DNA from: Globodera rostochiensis
Taxonomy: Eukaryota; Nematoda; Chromadorea; Rhabditida; Heteroderidae
Reading direction: 5' to 3'
DNA length: 64,000 bases
Assembly: GCA_018350325.1 (NCBI GenBank)
Contig: JAEVLN010000014.1
Coordinates: forward strand, 1,390,001-1,454,000
Each line of letters starts with the position of its first letter. The stretch's first letter is position 1. Positions 13,699-23,715 of this stretch are shown piece by piece. The notes beneath the pieces were generated by a model. It worked only from the letters and a program-made list of their open reading frames with translations. It was not told where the DNA came from and made no database searches. The translations under genes were made by a program, and so were the position numbers.

Positions 13699-16600
13699 TC
13701 AGGTGAATACGGAGGTTGGCACAAGTCCTTCTTTGGAGGCAAAAGTGGGCGACAAATTCTCACGGCGAAGAAAGTTAATGGGAAACTCCACCAAAAGGCC
13801 GACCAACTCGGCGAGGCGTTGTCGCGCCTTCTCCGGCTCTTCCTCGGCCATCGTCTTCTCGGCCCGCCAAATTGCGAGCTCTTCGAACGTTTTCACCTCA
13901 AAAGACAATTCCATTCCATTCAATTCACGGATTGTCTCACCAAATTTGTTGGGTACCCTCTGAAGACTTCCTCGTAAATGCGAGTGTTTGAGGCGGCGAT
14001 TTGACACCAATGGTCCTCGTAAAAGGTCGGACAAATTGGGTCCGTCACATCGATCTCTGCCGCCTTTCCTGGAGATGTCTTCGGAAGGGAATCTTCCAGC
14101 AACCCCAAATGCTCTCGCATTAAACGCGTCCGAAGGGAGGAAGCAAATTTGCCCGCTCGGAACGCTTTGCCGTCCATTCGGCCGTCAACAAACTCGTGGT
14201 CGGTGATCAACAAACAAACCTATAAATATTTTAAATAATTCCAAATTATACACTCATTAGGCTCTAATCTGATTAATAAAAGAATTATTGTAAATATTGC
14301 CTCCGAATCGCGATTTCCCGCCTGGGAACGGTCGTTGATGTTTGCGCTTCCGATGATTGTGTGCATGTCGTCCACGATCATCAGCTTCGAGTGGATATAA
14401 ACCAATTCGGTGACCTTTTGAGGGGAAAAATTGAATTTTTATAATTTCCCCCCCCCCACCCCGGTTGGTTCCATACCAGTTTCCCGTAAAGTTGGGAATA
14501 CGTGCGCAGTGAACAAAACGAAATGTATTTTTGCACATTTTCGACGCCCGCCCTTTGCAAGTTTTGGATGAGCGAATGGTCGCCCTTTGAAATGGAAAGC
14601 ATCGTCCAGTGGAGCACGGCCAAGAGGGCCGAGTAGGACGTGGCCCCGATGTCCCCTTCAAAGCCCGGCAGGAGAGGGATTAGCACAAATACACGGAAAG
14701 TTTCCTTCTCCCTAAAAGACCAACAAAATATACTCGCGTTACTTCTTTGAACATCACCTGTACGCTCTGATAATGCGATCACACAAAACGCGACAAATTT
14801 CTAAATTATTAGACACGAATTTCCACAATCGGACGAATACTTTCAGGCCCAAAAGATTATTTTTCCGAATTTTGCTTTTATTTATAATAAATAATACCGT
14901 TGTTCACGTCGGCATTGTTTATCATCGAAACAAAGAATTGGTTTTCGATGTACACATAATGCCGTGCATTGGCAATCAGTGAAAGGTACGCTTGTTGAAT
15001 GCTGTCCTCCGTTTTGTCGATTAGCGAAGACCAATGGGAGCAGGAACGGAGCACCTGCACCTCCACCCGGTGAGTGTTGTCGCCGAACAGCACACGGGGC
15101 ACCCGGATGGAGTTGTACGACTTGGGCAACAAGTACGGGTACCTGCTGTCGCTCTTCAGCTTTTCCGTCTAAGAGTTCAAAGCATTTCAGAAAATGTATT
15201 TGGCATAATTCCAACCAACCTTTGCGGCATTCCATCGCTGGATAAAGTGTCGGGCAACATCCCTCGCCGCCGACCCGTAAACTACCGAATGGATGTCGTG
15301 CCATGGCATTCTCGGAGTGTCGTAACGATTGATGAAGTCTTTGCTCAACGAATTCGGCACAATTTATTATTTAAGAACAAATAATGTACCGTTAAAAGCA
15401 AGGTCGACATCGACAAAATCCTTGTGAACAAAGTTCACGTAATCTTTTCCCGGCCACAGTTTGCCCGCCCCCTGCAGTCCCGACATGTCCACTTTGGTCT
15501 CTTGAAGCCGACAATAACTAATTTAACAGAAGCAAATAAAAGCAAAATGTCTGCAGAGTTTACTTCACAATGTATTCGTCCGCCGTCTCCTCCGACGGGT
15601 GCATGGCCAATCGCCAGCGACGCCTCGCCTTCTCCGGCTTCAAATTGTTGAGTGCCCGTCGGATGAGAGTGCTCTGTTTGGGTTCCATCATAACCTGGCT
15701 GGTCGGCGTCGTCATCCCTTTCGAAACAGTCTTTGATTGGCTTAAAAGAACCAACCATCAAACATTTATTGCCATATTCAGGGGAAAAACGGGCTAACCC
15801 CTCGTTGGACGATGAGCCTTCGGTTGTGTCCAGTATGTCCGTCGTTTGGTGTTCCTCCAGTGCAGACAAATTGCTGGTAAAGTTCGAAAAACGGACCATC
15901 GGTTTTCCGTTCTCCACAAATATTTCCGTATTTTCCATTCCATCCGCCGAATGTCGTTGCCTTTGAATGGGTTTAGCCGGCGTGTCCTTGCTGTCATCAC
16001 TCTCCCGTCGTCCTGCTCGAACTCTGTCCACCGTCCGTTGCATTACGCCCTTCAACTTTTGCTGTATGGGCGTCGTTAGTGACGGCTCTTTCGGTTTCGA
16101 AATCGTTTCTAAAATAATAAAATTATTTCAGCAATTCCACACAAAGGCACCATTTTCTGGCGGTTTGCTTATCGTTTCCGTTGTTTTCTCGCCAATTTTT
16201 CGACCGGTCCCCCCGTCGATGATGTCCTCAGTTAGACGATGGACTTTTTGCAAGTTATCCCCGTCTGCCGTAACTTTGGTCTTCGTATCAACCGGAATTG
16301 GTTCCTCAAATTGACTCATTTTCTTAATATTTCTTAATCCAATTTACCATAACGACTTGTTCGGAGCGTGGCTCAAACACTACAGAACCCAGATCGGTAA
16401 GCATGTGTCGTCTGTCGTCCCATCGCCCGTAACAAAAATCAATCCCGCCGACAAAGGCAACGAGCTGGTCGATGATCAACAATTTTTCGTGATGAGCCCA
16501 AAAGAACGTGCCGCTGCCCAAATAATGGTCCGGATGACGAATTACCTAAACCAACAGTTACCCGAAGACAGAGTGTTTTACGACTCTCACCTTTATGTTG

Positions 16601-18579
16601 GGATGCAGTCCCTGCAAGTGCTTCTTGGAGTAGAGGCTTTTCAGTCCGAGTGCCATCTCCATCTCCTTGTAGACGAGGATGAAAATGCGAATGCCCTTCT
16701 CCGCGCGCCTCTTCAGCGCGTAGTCCAAACGCCAATAATTGCCCTCGGCCATCGGTCGGCGCAGAAATATTTCCGGACTCAGCCACCAATCGGCGATAAA
16801 AATTTCTTCGCGTGCCATTTCAATGAGAGAGGCCGCCTTCTCCCAACAGTCCTTGGCGTCCACAAACCATTGGCAATAGGAATTTAGCCGCTGGGGAAAG
16901 GAAGAGCCGTAGCGTTTCTTGTGCAGCCAAATCTGTCCCGTCTCCTCCAGAACGTGCTTAATGGTGTCGATCCAATCGTCAGTGTCCTCCTCGCTGTGAC
17001 ATCGCAAGTCGAGCACACTATGGGGAATGCTATAGTATACACAAAGACGATTAATTTCATCAAAACAAAAAGTTTCTCGAATTGCTCCTCTTGTTATATT
17101 AGTAATTTCTCCAAAAAGAACGACTTTTTTCTGATTAAAATATTTGATAATTGACTGACTGTTGCAGGTTCGAAAGTACCATCTCCTTTGGCCGAAGATT
17201 GACGGCCAATTCATGCGAATTGACCTCAAACTGTTCATCGAATAATAGCACGAGTCGAATTTCCTCGTTGGACGGGTTCACGTAGCTGACGTAAGTGTCT
17301 TTGACCATTAACCATCTAAACCCGAATGTAATTAGGCTTATATCCTTCTTTTGGGGATGCCTTTTGCTCCAGGGGAGAAGCCATCGAACACAAAATTGTT
17401 TGCAGCCAATGTACACTTTGTTCCCGCCCGGACGTTTTTTTGTTTTTCCTTCTTTGTACTTTCCGCCTAATTCGTTGATGAAAGAGTAACGCGAAACGTC
17501 CAAAAACTCGGCCTAAAAAAAGCAGAAGAATTAAATTAAGGAGGACAACAAGCAGTAAACTTAACCGTCTCGTGGTATTCACGGTTTATCGGAATTCTCA
17601 GAACCGCCCTAAGCCATTTCTCCAACTTTTGTGATCGTTCCTGCATGTGATCGTCGGCAATCATGGAGTCGGGGACCATTGGAAAATAAGGCATGCTGCT
17701 CATTGTCAGTTCATCGTCCATTTTGCTGTCATCCGCTTTAAACTCTAAAGAGAAATGGCCTTTTTCAACAATAAATGTTGGCTTTTCGGATATACCGTCC
17801 CAGGTCGAATCAGGAAGAAGGCCGTCCTCATTGTACTCGTCGATTTCGGGGTCTTTGGACAGTACGTGAAGCTGCAAATGATTTTACAAAAACATTACAA
17901 ACAAATTTAAACTCACTGTGCTTGAGTCGGTCGGACTCCTCGCCTTGTCCTGCTTCTCCTCCTCGTCCTCGCCATCATTCCCTTCGATGACTTCCTCCAA
18001 CCGGTTGCGAGCTCTTAATTTGGTTCAGTTAATTGGTAACAATGACTGAAGGATAAAAACCAATTAAATTCAGATTTCGATTGGTATTTGTAAAAATAAC
18101 AAAAATAATGTTTATAGCGGCGAATAATAACAGTCAATGGACCCTAAACAAGCCTCCGGACGGGCGCTTTAATCCGTTCCGCTGTTCGATGCGCCAGCAA
18201 GCGGCTGCTCAAAGCCGAGAAGTCTTTGTACCGTTTGATTGTTCTCCATTTGTAGCGGCCGTGTTCAAGTTCAATTGTGTATCTAATTAAGTAATTGTGT
18301 CGTTGCATCTTGCAAAATTTTGTGAAAAAAACGGCACATGAATGGGTTTAGGATGTGATAATTTGACGACACATCGCGCCTAACATGCACAATTGTGGCC
18401 TCCACTTGTAGTCCGGGGATCCAATAGCCATTCTTCCGGACCTCCTCTTGCTTCTCATAAATTGTCGAATAGGGAATATATCCGCGACGACGTCTCGGCG
18501 TTGTTTTAATGGCGAGTTCGTCGCCGCCATTAGTGTAATCGCACGAGCTGTCCACTGTAATCGATGAAGGCGCTTCCAT
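13699..18579 (-). CDS. PLD1: Phospholipase D with PX and PH domains (PLD1/2 family)
   Basis: Many minus-strand exons. Exon 1 (18338-18579) opens [10 protein letters not shown] and starts the PX domain ([11 protein letters not shown]). Exon 2 starts at 18282 and continues PX ([24 protein letters not shown]). The PX-PH junction reads [21 protein letters not shown] follows ([29 protein letters not shown]). The catalytic core has [20 protein letters not shown] motif 1 in [20 protein letters not shown] (near 16450-16500), a long Ser/acid-rich loop (about 15600-16320) as in PLD1, [21 protein letters not shown] text, and HKD motif 2 in [20 protein letters not shown] (near 14350-14400). The C-terminus reads [20 protein letters not shown] and stops at 13699-13701. 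The enzyme hydrolyses phosphatidylcholine to phosphatidate on endomembranes. Both HKD triads are intact. The junction after exon 2 (about 18010-18140) was not resolved. Confidence 0.93.
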
Positions 18580-19279
18580 CGTTTGGCTATGAATTACGAA
18601 AAAATGTAAAATTTACACGTTGAAACGAATAGAAAATGTACGCAAGATTGATTAGCTTTAACAGCAATTAGAGGGAAATAATGACAAGAAAGTCAACAAA
18701 TGCGAAGAATAGTTTGTGTTTGTTGCCTTGTACAAGAAGGGGGGGGGGGTGGAAGAAACGGGACGGGATGTTTTTTTTCTAATTTAGGACACGGGACGGC
18801 CCAGCACTGGAATGCACCAACCAATATGTACGTACGCATAGCGTTCGCCTTGCATGACTTATTCAGTTGACAAATGTTTTTTGCATTGATATGAATAAAA
18901 TGATTAATCGCAGCAATCTTCTTTTCCTTATACGCAAGACAACCAACCCCGTTGTCTTTGTTCTGTCCGCACATATCTCCCGATGAGTCTACGAGCGTGT
19001 AATTAAATCCTGCGAATTAGCATCATCAACAAAACATTTTAAACGGCAGGTATCCCATTCGTTGATCAATGCGACTAATTTCGGTTACCCGTGAGTTTCT
19101 CCTGATGGCGCCTGCCCGACCATCGGTTTAATTTTTGTGTACGCTCCGCCCCCCCCCCCCCCCCCCCCGAAGTTTTCTGAGTACGCCCCTGGCAATAAAG
19201 AGTGTTCAAATAATTGCTTTACACCAGTTCTCAAAAAACAGGCCATTAAGAAAGACAAAAATGGTTCGAGATCCGTCGT
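18580..19279. other. Intergenic between PLD and SPRTN-EME1
   Basis: Holds the PLD upstream region and the downstream flank of the fusion gene. There are a G-run at 18741-18749 and a C-run at about 19150-19169. No exon-like frames are present. Confidence 0.5.
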
Positions 19280-21934
19280 TCATTCGGTCGATTCAGTTCC
19301 GGTCCGACTTGTCAACATTTTGTAAATTTTCTGTGCCAACACAGGCCCCAACCGACGACCACTTTCCATTTGAATTTCCGAAAGTGCGAACATTGCTTGG
19401 CCCGCAGTGTTGTCCGGCTCCAATAGCCATTCCATCAACCTGAGTTAGTTGCTTTACTCTAAATCAGCACCAAACGTTTCAGTTTGTACTTGTACGGGTT
19501 CGGATGTGCCTCCATAATCGCCCTTTTCTGTTCCTCACTCATCCGATGTAAATGTTCTAACATTTTCTCCCACCAATCAGAAACCATTGACGGACCATCG
19601 GCAATTCCTTTCTCAGCAACGAAATGTGTTCCGTTGCTTAGGTCGGACTGTTCAACCTGTTCAAACCAACAACAATCAAAACTGTTTCATTTATTCACTA
19701 AAATAGTCGAAAAAAAACCAACCAAAATTTGCTTCTCCGCCTTCTTCTCCATTTTGGCCAGCGCTCTGTGATATTGCGCGATTAAAAATGAAAAATCAAA
19801 CGCATCAGAAACGAAGCGGAATTGGATTCGATGCTTTTCGAACGCTTCAAAAATAAGTGAAGACACCTGAAGATGATTAAGATATAAAAGATGCCATTAA
19901 AATAGAGAAATTAATTTAAAGAAACAGAGAATCCTCTTTTTAGTTTAAATTGATTTTCAAATTTGAAAACGCACAGTATTCTCGCGCACGTGATGTGTTC
20001 CGAAAACAACAACAGTAAGTTGAGGATCGCCACTGATTTTTTGGCGGACCGTGGCCATTTGCTCGTCCAAATAATCCATCATAGAATTTCCTCTGCTTTT
20101 CACCAACACGGAATACGTTTCACCGCTGAGCACACAACAGAAGACATTTTGCAGTTCCTATTTCGAATTTTTAAAATGATTTTTTAAAGACAACTCACCA
20201 TTCTTTCATTTTTGTGCAATTTCCCATCCTCAAGAAAAGCCTCCAGTCGTTTCTTGAGCCAAAACACTTGCATTAAATTATTGTGTGACTTGTCGTAGAC
20301 GATCTGTTCCGTAATTCCACGTTCTTCAAAACGTTTTTCCAGCTCCACGGCCAAATTGTCTTAAAGCATGATTTAAATGATGAACACGTCCAAAAAAATA
20401 ACCATTAAGGCAGAGAATCTTCGAAGAAAAATGGCAGAAAAGGTACTGCTCGCATTTAGTGTTTTTTGCCGACTGAATCTGACGACAAACTTTGTTCACT
20501 TCCTTGTTAAGCTAAACGCGTATTAAATAATCTAAGAAAAAGCAAAATAACAGAAAAGCCTCGCCACACCTTTTCCTGTTCGATCTCTTCCTTTGTTCTC
20601 CTCTTTCGTTTTGCTACTGGCTTCTCGGTCTCGCCGTCAACAGTACTCGTAGATTGAGAATTGGAAGGCCCTCTCCGCTCTTCTTCCATAAATGCCGATG
20701 TTGTAACAGCCTCATTGCCAAGAACGTAACCTTTGCAATTAATAGTCAGTTTAGCCATCAGCCAGGAGATGGAGGGATTCCCCCCCCCTTCCTCGAAATT
20801 CAAACCGTACCTTTGCCTGGAAAAAATATGTCAATTTTTGGTTGCGTTGTTTCCGTTTCGCTCGACCTTTTCCGATTTGTTGGGCTCTTCTTTACGTTTA
20901 TTTTCGTTGCCTTCTCCTTTTTCTCCGGCTCTTTGACCTTCACAAATTTACCTAAATTGCATTGTTACCCAACATCAACGCAACTTCCGTTCACGGAGCC
21001 CACCAGAACAGCTGGCCTGGTGCGTCGCCCACCATAAGTCATTGGCACTTGGGGCCCGGTTCATTGCACGCTTAACCCATCCGAAAAAGGGCGGTCTGTC
21101 TTTGCAAGGGCCCGTGCAACGCCACCAGTGCTGTTTGTAGTGGGCCACCTCGGCATGAAAGGAGTGGTAGACGGTGATTGAGGTGCCTGCCAATTTGTTG
21201 ATGCGGTGCATGTGCGATTGAAAATCGGGGCCATGACCTGAAATTTGGAGAAATTGGATGGAACAAACGACAAGGCGACCATCTCTGTCCTGAATTCCAT
21301 TCGTGACGAACTGATAAGCGTGGATCATTTCATGCTGTAATTAATTACCATAAATGAGAATAAAACTAACGGAATCTCACCAATAATGTTTCAACCAAAT
21401 CTCTCCTCGGACGCAGCTTAAGCAAAGGTTCGCTCAATCGGATTGAACAAAGCCGATTTCCGACGCTGAACCGACAGAGACCAGCACAGCTTAATCTCTT
21501 ATTGTTAGGCTTAAAAGGAATGAATATCCTAGACAACCTTGTCATCGTTTTACTCCACTCAACAATGCAGGCATTTGAGTTTAAAGTGCCCCAGAAGAAT
21601 TGGTGGTCAAATGTGACAAAAAGTTCGTGGATATTTGGGCTAGGGTCGACAAGTTCGTAAGAAGCGTCGACTAAGTTCAACAACGTCTTTGTTTGAGACG
21701 TTGCACATTCTTCCTGCCAAATCACGAAGTTATTTAACATTTCCAATTTTGAATACTTTCAAAAAAGAGGCAAAACCCAAAGGACCACCGTTGCCTAAAA
21801 TGCTAAATCATTAGAAGCAATTTAAGAATTTTTTTTTTTTGCTTACTTTGTCGATATCCTTCCAATCTTTCATCATCACTACTCCCAAGCTCAATAACAT
21901 CAAAGTCATTGGAAGTGCAGGGAGGTTTGTCCAT
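19280..21934 (-). CDS. SPRTN-EME1 fusion: SprT DNA-protein-crosslink protease joined to the MUS81 partner EME1
   Basis: Fourteen minus-strand exons, all GT-AG: 21847-21934, 21757-21794, 21538-21713, 21381-21495, 21280-21334, 21004-21237, 20811-20951, 20570-20730, 20403-20511, 20199-20359, 19975-20157, 19723-19866, 19490-19656 and 19280-19439. They sum to 1932 nt (643 aa) with no frame break. The N-terminal half is SPRTN: an acidic SIM-like FDVIELGSSDDE, ELVDPSPNIHELFVTFD, CSIRLSEPLLKLRPRRDLVE, the metalloprotease site HEMIH with a third His in HGPDF, and the zinc subdomain HWWRCTGPCKDRP...WWATHQASC. A PIP-box (QPKIDIFF) runs straight into a p97-binding SHP box (FFPGKGYVLG). From about residue 320 a Lys/Arg/Glu-rich helix leads into EME1: ELEKRFEERG, LTVVVFGTHHVRE, FDFSFLIAQYHRALAKME, AHPNPYKLMEWL and SGRRLGPVLAQKIYK. 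SPRTN digests protein crosslinks on chromatin; EME1 is the non-catalytic partner of MUS81. The C-terminal UBZ finger of SPRTN is absent. Two genes sharing exon 8 is the main alternative. Confidence 0.85.
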
Positions 21935-22460: not shown

Positions 22461-23715
22461 ATGTCATCTATTGGTGCTTCAAATCCGCTTGGAAGTTTGT
22501 GAGTTTTTATTTATTTTTCTTTGCATTTTAAATACATATTTAGGAGCAACGTTGGCTCCATTGGCAATTGGGTGGATGCTGTGGATCAAGAAACGGGTCG
22601 GTTTTAATATGTTTTTATTCATCTTGGGCAACTTTTAGCCTTAAAATCCAATAAAGATACATTTTTTGGATTTTTTTAGCACAAAAGCGAAGCGAGTTTT
22701 TAAAAGACGGCATCAAAACCGTTATTGATTACGTTGTTGAACCAGATGGAAGCAAAAGCAAGGTTTGAACCGGCTTATGAGCTAAACCTTTAAGTCCATG
22801 TTACTTATTGTTCAGGTGATTGCCACATACAAAGTAATTCGTAAAAAAGTGCCCCGTGTGGTCGCAGAGCGAAAAAGTTGGAAGAAATTTGGCGCTTCAA
22901 AGGATGACGGGCCCGGCCCGAACATCAACACGACGTATGTGGCGGACGAAGTTGAGGTCCAATTCACCAATCGTCCCGGGGAGCAGGACGAGCGGGACGA
23001 GAAGGCGTCTGACCCACTCCTGAAGGGACAGTCTTCGAAGGCACACTGCCGCTTTTGCAAATCGGACGAGCATTGGAGCGTCGTCTGTCCTTACAAGGTC
23101 GAGGCACTTTGGTGTTGTTAGTGGGGAGGAGGGGTTAAATTCTTTCAAATTAAATACATGTTAATTTTGCGGGTTAAGGAAATGTTCAAGGATATTTCTG
23201 AAGAAGAACAACCGGATCCGGACAAAGGCGGTCTCAATAAGCTAACCGCCGGACGTTACGTTCCGCCATCACAACGAGGCGGAGCGGGCGAACGTTCGAC
23301 GATGACCACCGGTGTGAAATGGGAAAGATTTATGTGCAAATTTCAAAATTTCTTGTTTAGGGACAGAACAGCGCCACTCGGACGATTACACCGTTCGCAT
23401 AACAAATTTGCCTGAGGATTCGGAAACTTTGGAGGACGATTTGCGTGCGTTGTTCAGCCGAGCTGGTCGCATCGTTCGCTTTTATTTGGCACGCGACAAA
23501 AGTACGGGGCGGCCGAAGGGATTTGCTTTCGTCACTTTTGCTACCCAAATGGACGCGGAGAAGGCCATTCAGGAGATAAACGGGGCCAAAATGGAACATC
23601 TCATCCTGAAGGTGGAGTGGACAAAGTGAGTTATGGGCTGATCAGAATTGATCAGATTGTGAACGGTTGGTTGTTTGGGGCTAATTTAAAATTAATTGCC
23701 AGACCGTCAACCTGA
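22461..23715 (+). CDS. EIF3G: Translation initiation factor eIF3 subunit G
   Basis: Seven exons: 22461-22498, 22544-22596, 22680-22762, 22816-23097, 23179-23311, 23361-23625 and 23703-23715; 288 aa. eIF3g is an RNA-binding subunit of eIF3, which recruits mRNA to the 40S ribosome and promotes scanning. Family blocks, in order, are NWVDAVD, DGIKTVIDYVVEPDGSK, VIRKKVPRVVAERKSWKKFG, a zinc knuckle CRFCKSDEHWSVVCPY, LTAGRYVPPSQR, and a C-terminal RRM with RNP2 VRITNLPE and RNP1 KGFAFVTF, ending LKVEWTKPST. The last exon contributes only 13 coding bases (end of Lys, Pro, Ser, Thr, stop). The length is slightly below human (320 aa), mainly from a shorter N-terminus. The start ATG precedes SSIGASNPLGSL. 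Confidence 0.96.

Follow-up and report, generated by a model that had tools for sequence, protein, structure and literature searches.

SPRTN is a DNA-activated protease that self-cleaves in trans (PMC5128726), and EME1 is the partner of MUS81 in a nuclease that, as reported in PMC10189953, left DNA carrying native TOP1 uncut and cut it once it had been trypsin-treated. The two proteins are encoded apart in Caenorhabditis elegans, where dvc-1 and eme-1 are two genes (PMC9097270). Here, we report the analysis of a 64,000-nucleotide stretch (the window) of the yellow potato cyst nematode Globodera rostochiensis (contig JAEVLN010000014.1, positions 1,390,001 to 1,454,000), in which one gene on the reverse strand encodes SPRTN and EME1 in a single reading frame. 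Judged by DNA and gene models, this SPRTN-EME1 fusion is real; it brings two known families together in a new way and does not constitute a family of its own. No description of it was found among the papers listed in searches of the open-licence literature, in line with the initial annotation of the locus, which had known of none; the same annotation had treated SPRTN and EME1 as separate proteins in human and C. elegans, and they are separate as dvc-1 and eme-1 and as the distinct proteins of other nematodes described below.

The exon set first proposed for the gene was rebuilt from the DNA, and its 14 exons, start, stop, GT-AG borders (13 introns) and open frame were all reproduced, with the borders given earlier in agreement. 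The layout also sums to the length originally claimed, 1932 nt or 644 codons including the stop, but this figure did not survive comparison with the homologues. Two residues, RL, of the 644-codon model have no counterpart in the database proteins P0001 and P0002 or in the SPRTN proteins of Meloidogyne and Ditylenchus (which read MTSCAG), and the acceptor of intron 3 was therefore placed 6 nt downstream, giving 1926 nt or 642 codons including the stop. The 641-aa product of this revised model is identical to the UniRef protein P0001 of G. rostochiensis in every letter (100% identity).

The two halves meet in exon 8: as initially annotated, it holds the last part of the SHP box as well as the EME1 basic helix KRKRRTKEEIEQEK. 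The SHP box is split by the splice as GKG/YVLG, and exon 8 then runs on to the helix with no stop codon between. The stand-alone SPRTN of Meloidogyne incognita (P0121), whose C-terminal end reads FPGKGFMLGSK, supports the splice into the exon, and stand-alone EME1 proteins (in Ditylenchus, KRKKRTKEEIEQEKLIKEVNK) support the splice at its other end. Simple arithmetic gives an exon of 53 codons a chance of about (61/64)^53 = 8% of being free of stops at random, hence the G. rostochiensis genome alone would not decide the matter; it is the existence of continuous proteins in Heterodera schachtii and Globodera pallida that makes the junction more than chance. The linker from the SHP box to the helix differs in length among the fusions by whole-residue gaps in the protein alignments.

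Among the homologue matches listed, i.e. the best 120 of 1553 in one search and the best 120 of 1186 in another, database proteins of three species cross the junction. Besides P0001, these are P0002 of H. schachtii (637 aa), which has the same fusion at 75% identity over 99% (477 of 635 aligned positions identical), and P0003 of G. pallida (480 aa), which is N-terminally incomplete and without the SprT domain, runs from the zinc-binding domain through the end of EME1 and spans the junction. The domain pair that the initial annotation had proposed to seek in related nematodes is thus present in H. schachtii, and in G. pallida as a junction-spanning fragment. The database names of the fusion proteins are SprT-like, hypothetical or, for G. 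pallida, MUS81. The EME1 part of P0003 also shows a partial repeat (about 38 residues, ALAKVEKKAEKQI), which an exon duplication or an error of assembly may explain.

Separate proteins are found in other relatives. M. incognita has a 311-aa SPRTN (P0121, ending just past the SHP box) and a 468-aa EME1 (P0004), M. hapla has a stand-alone EME1 (P0005), and Ditylenchus destructor has SPRTN proteins (P0008, P0009) apart from those named 'Essential Meiotic Endonuclease' (P0149, P0150); the 256-aa SPRTN model of M. enterolobii (P0127) lacks an SHP match and differs from P0121 at its end. Maximum-likelihood trees of the SPRTN half and of the EME1 half each unite the fusions in one clade (100/98 in both). 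This clade adjoins M. incognita and one unnamed protein in the SPRTN-half tree (89/89) and three Meloidogyne proteins and one unnamed protein in the EME1-half tree (100/98), with Ditylenchus further out in both. The trees comprise 23 and 15 selected rows, with the deep branches of both weakly placed and three of the EME1 rows long; row P0107 of the SPRTN tree was trimmed at the default position, the pattern having no match there. By NCBI taxonomy Globodera belongs to Heteroderidae and Meloidogyne to Meloidogynidae, two families of Tylenchoidea. The simplest history suggested by these comparisons would be a single fusion of native genes in the line of the cyst nematodes, after its split from the root-knot nematodes.

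Separate SPRTN and EME1 genes were also sought in the G. rostochiensis genome itself (92.6 Mb, 80 contigs), as first proposed, by searches in which the best candidates only were scored, such that a strongly diverged copy could escape. Translated searches with each half found no second SPRTN or EME1 and matched only at this locus, and a DNA query of the junction had no match in the genome beyond it. The profile PF22934 returned this locus and one sub-threshold match with stops (E 0.3), while PF21292 had no match in the genome, this locus included, where the domain is probably split by exons; the latter result is evidence for neither side. A MUS81-like gene with VERKTLDDL lies at C1:6187934. The candidate C7:1610173 was rejected as a second EME1, being judged by eye to read as XPF (VERKSLDDL), and a C20 frame (HEAIH) and multi-copy HEASH frames were rejected as a second SPRTN, being SprT-like only. 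The C20 fragment (C20:900111-900260), close to the multi-copy element in its pattern, could represent either an older copy or a gene of the GCNA kind. The HEASH frame lies above the Pfam cut-off at six sites (C1:3233411, C45:3873787, C10:1584067, C12:5186959, C12:5190246 and C29:6783), and the five copies compared are 99.3-99.9% identical across 2.2-3.2 kb, so that the frame appears to belong to a mobile or amplified element of recent date that carries an SprT-like protease piece.

One locus could still give two products through alternative 3' ends, intron retention or trans-splicing, with the joined model an artefact or a minor form. We consider this improbable. Retention of intron 7 would give a 283-aa SPRTN that ends in FPGKGTV with the SHP box incomplete, and retention of intron 8 a 354-aa form. 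Exon 7 further contains an AATAAA (20902) with the acceptor-like TTTTTTCCAG 84 nt on (20818) and an in-frame ATG (M295) to follow in exon 8, a set of signals that might in principle provide for a distinct EME1 mRNA and so weighs against a single protein; spacing of this sort between AATAAA and acceptor resembles that of nematode operons. However, KIN, which is encoded at the AATAAA, is not matched like for like in either H. schachtii or G. pallida; the T-run of TTTTTTCCAG codes for FF, a conserved part of the SHP box; and a cut at 20818, like retention of intron 7, would strip the end of this box. Exon 8 has both ends and no stop, and no TTT-type acceptor was found inside it. In H. schachtii there is no methionine from the SHP box to the EME1 fold, the first one lying inside the fold (PMQIFW) and M295 being missing, so that an EME1 made separately would lack a start codon ahead of its fold. 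In view of the unconserved AATAAA residues, the coding T-run and the missing M295, a single joined protein appears to be a likelier product than separate ones.

The SPRTN half is identified by its SprT domain (PF10263, 1.8e-28), with HExxH as HEMIH at residue 138, by a zinc-binding domain of SPRTN type (PF22934, 2.1e-25) and by its match to human SPRTN (E 1.3e-84; 65-68% identity over the aligned solved domain). The SHP box named in the initial annotation is present as FPGKGYVLG, and a putative PCNA-interacting (PIP-like) motif, QPKIDIFF, overlaps it, both being motif matches. The same patterns were matched in other nematode SPRTN proteins in 5 (PIP), 14 (SHP) and 8 (UBZ) of 20. For UBZ, a C-terminal feature of many but not all SPRTN proteins, no pattern was found in the three fusion rows or in the Meloidogyne, Ditylenchus and Panagrolaimus SPRTN proteins examined, and with only 8 of the 20 others matching, UBZ does not define nematode SPRTN. 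Overlap or abutment of PIP and SHP was also observed in the SPRTN proteins of Acrobeloides, Toxocara and Loa, and the SHP block is repeated two to three times in that of Panagrolaimus superbus and in two further ones. Human SPRTN minus its C-terminal tail is reported to retain partial activity, and ubiquitin to activate the protease via a site involving Leu38 and Leu99 (PMC12279946); both leucines have identical counterparts in the fusion (alignment, counted from E112).

An AlphaFold model of the fusion, submitted to a fold search, gave matches to human SPRTN and to EME1, the C-terminal half being predicted as an ERCC4-like fold followed by a helix-hairpin-helix (HhH) domain, closest to EME1. 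The predicted template modelling score (pTM) is 0.45, so that the arrangement of the two domains relative to each other is not predicted, and the predicted local distance difference test score (pLDDT) is below 50 at residues 257-294 and 300-310. By sequence alone the EME1 identity is weak, which counts against the assignment: the match to EME1 in the PDB has E 0.03, or 0.015 with a profile. The Pfam family EME1-MUS81_C (PF21292) scores 24.7 bits, below the cut-off of 27.4, as do three stand-alone nematode EME1 proteins (21.0-24.9). The C-terminal half might instead be MUS81, for which the UniRef names of P0003 and P0005 speak, as does the listing of chain A in 2 of the 14 MUS81-EME entries of the fold search (2ziw, 4p0r). 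This identity is scarcely credible and was rejected on account of the fold search as a whole, the separate MUS81-like gene and the ERKxxxD nuclease motif, which was not found in the fusion protein.

The initial annotation described SPRTN as joined to EME1. That a single frame unites both was borne out, but EME1-like residues precede the SprT domain, so the join may be an insertion. Ahead of the SprT homology, residues 1-52 hold VIELGSSDDE (LIELGDSDDE in H. schachtii), which resembles a SUMO-interacting motif (SIM) and lies on an exon of its own in G. rostochiensis; shuffling of these 52 residues gave P values of 0.0018 and 0.0070 for such a motif. A SIM-like motif starts at residues 7-11 in 9 of 15 other nematode EME1 proteins (Meloidogyne MNNTSGIIFLSDDSGG, Ditylenchus MDDSIQVIDLSDREE), a count that excludes the N-terminally incomplete P0003, P0158 and P0160. 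Among SPRTN-type proteins, taken as all other proteins among the matches listed and not individually vetted, a motif falls within the first 30 residues in 1 of 140, where it is the SprT start itself. This distribution suggests that SPRTN probably lies nested within the N-terminal region of EME1 and is not joined in front of it. H. schachtii retains MLNLVD, which Ditylenchus SPRTN has right behind a short leader (PRMLNLVD). An N-terminal SIM in EME1 has a precedent, since N-terminal SIMs of fission-yeast Eme1 are reported to bind SUMO (PMC9032445). Two points tell against nesting: the motif is absent from 6 of the 15 EME1 proteins (P0151, P0152, P0154, P0155, P0157 and P0159, some of which may be incomplete), and modules for ubiquitin or SUMO (SIM) occur in SPRTN/Wss1 proteases (PMC5128726), so that a motif this short could be convergent.

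An end-to-end fusion would have required a SPRTN that lost its stop past the SHP box and read into an EME1 without its N-terminus, the SIM-like motif having arisen independently. P0121 of M. incognita and the nematode SPRTN proteins P0007, P0122 and P0123 end 3-6 residues past the last SHP match, so that loss of one stop would be enough, and SIMs are known within the SPRTN/Wss1 family. We nevertheless hold this route possible but unlikely, as the motif is placed as in EME1 proteins, stands ahead of SprT in both Globodera and Heterodera, and is set on a separate exon.

On balance, we lean towards a genuine fusion that arose once in the cyst nematodes, with SPRTN inside the N-terminal region of EME1 and with MUS81 pairing giving a protease-then-nuclease action. 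The order along the chain, which the sequence shows, is SIM-like motif, SprT, zinc-binding domain, basic region, PIP/SHP, linker, EME1 pseudonuclease and HhH, as though an almost complete SPRTN frame, reaching from shortly ahead of its first homologous residues (MLNLVD in Heterodera) as far as its SHP box, had been set into the poorly structured N-terminal region of EME1. Pairing of the EME1 half with MUS81 would give MUS81-EME1 dimers that carry a DNA-activated protease, and the SUMO, PCNA and p97 motifs may recruit the fusion to DNA-protein crosslinks at stalled forks, where the protease would trim the trapped protein and the nuclease would then cut the DNA behind the leftover peptide; self-cleavage in the linker could afterwards free EME1. 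The effect of trypsin on TOP1-bound DNA described above fits such an order.

Several observations weigh against this course of events. A plant study, by its title, reportedly has WSS1A, MUS81 and TDP1 acting as independent pathways. Streptavidin on DNA left MUS81 cleavage unblocked (PMC10189953), so a protease is not required for every protein on the DNA, and fission-yeast Eme1 SIM mutants alone showed no added camptothecin sensitivity (PMC9032445). As SPRTN cleaves itself in trans, the halves might also not stay joined. A fusion that is translated with its tether unused for coupled repair, serving only to lock co-expression or being parted by self-cleavage, is accordingly an explanation to be weighed, although a doubtful one: self-cleavage in trans on DNA (PMC5128726) and the low pLDDT at residues 257-294 and 300-310 speak for it, but two genera have retained the fusion, searches of this genome gave no further copy, and an order of protease then MUS81 would make the tether useful.

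The coupled action that we favour may have a stricter form, which we regard as distinctly unlikely, in which the nested SPRTN turns MUS81-EME1 into a latent protease-nuclease and the fusion is a self-releasing enzyme: SUMO and DNA at a crosslink would activate the protease, the trapped protein would be digested and the linker of the enzyme itself would then be cut. If so, EME1 would be freed without its regulatory N-terminus, perhaps hyperactive, exactly at the cut site, and the protease-before-nuclease order would be built into the protein. Whether SPRTN proteolysis and MUS81 cleavage form one pathway or run in parallel is a question on which in-vitro work suggests an order and plant genetics, reportedly, independence. 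That two genera share the single chain, and that searches of this genome gave no other copy of either half, provides evidence of a genetic kind that the functions are linked; the two repair steps may be wired into one molecule. The natural fusion would also be a ready-made tool for studying crosslink repair in vitro. With it an animal SPRTN would be headed by a SUMO-interacting-like motif, and the lineage is one whose SPRTN has no recognisable UBZ.

The features of the gene are collected in the table below. Downstream on the same strand lies a frame that reads as phospholipase D-like (15435-17877, -), and upstream on the opposite strand one that reads as eIF3g-like (22798-23629, +). A run of 20 C occupies positions 19149-19168 of the window (+ strand; G on the coding strand), about 110 bases 3' of the stop codon. 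A tRNA scan found none; the promoter and terminator scan is of bacterial type and uninformative for nematode DNA.

Table. Features of the SPRTN-EME1 fusion gene of G. rostochiensis, in window positions.
Feature	Position	Strand	Description
SPRTN-EME1 fusion gene	19280..21934	-	14 coding exons, 641 aa, revised model; exons joined in frame
Exon 1	21847..21934	-	Start codon and SIM-like VIELGSSDDE (21869-21898); EME1-like N-terminus
Exon 2	21757..21794	-	Linker, 13 residues, ahead of SPRTN
Exons 3-6	21004..21713	-	SprT metalloprotease and zinc-binding domain (PF10263, PF22934)
Exon borders, exons 3-6	21713-21538, 21489-21381, 21334-21280, 21237-21004	-	
HEMIH zinc/active site	21320..21334	-	Residues 138-142
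Exon 7	20811..20951	-	Basic region, PIP-like QPKIDIFF (20821-20844), first part of SHP box (20811-20823)
Intron 7	20731..20810	-	80 nt
Exon 8 (junction)	20570..20730	-	End of SHP box YVLG (20717-20730), linker, EME1 basic helix KRKRRTKEEIEQEK (20570-20611)
Exons 9-14	19280..20511	-	EME1 pseudonuclease (predicted ERCC4-like fold) and C-terminal HhH domain
Exon borders, exons 9-11	20511-20403, 20359-20199, 20157-19975	-	
Exon borders, exons 12-14	19866-19723, 19656-19490, 19439-19280	-	

Compared with SPRTN/DVC-1, the fusion shares the HEMIH site, the zinc-binding domain, the basic region and the PIP-like and SHP motifs, whereas it has no UBZ pattern, runs on into EME1 and bears a SIM-like N-terminus of EME1 type ahead. 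With EME1 it has in common the ERCC4-like pseudonuclease, the C-terminal HhH domain, the lack of a catalytic motif, the basic helix and the N-terminal SIM-like motif, and it differs in that its N-terminal region appears to house a whole protease. We know of no yeast Wss1 that is fused to a nuclease subunit. For Wss1, the yeast protease of the SPRTN family, the family legend in PMC5128726 gives the p97 modules SHP and VIM together with the SUMO module SIM.
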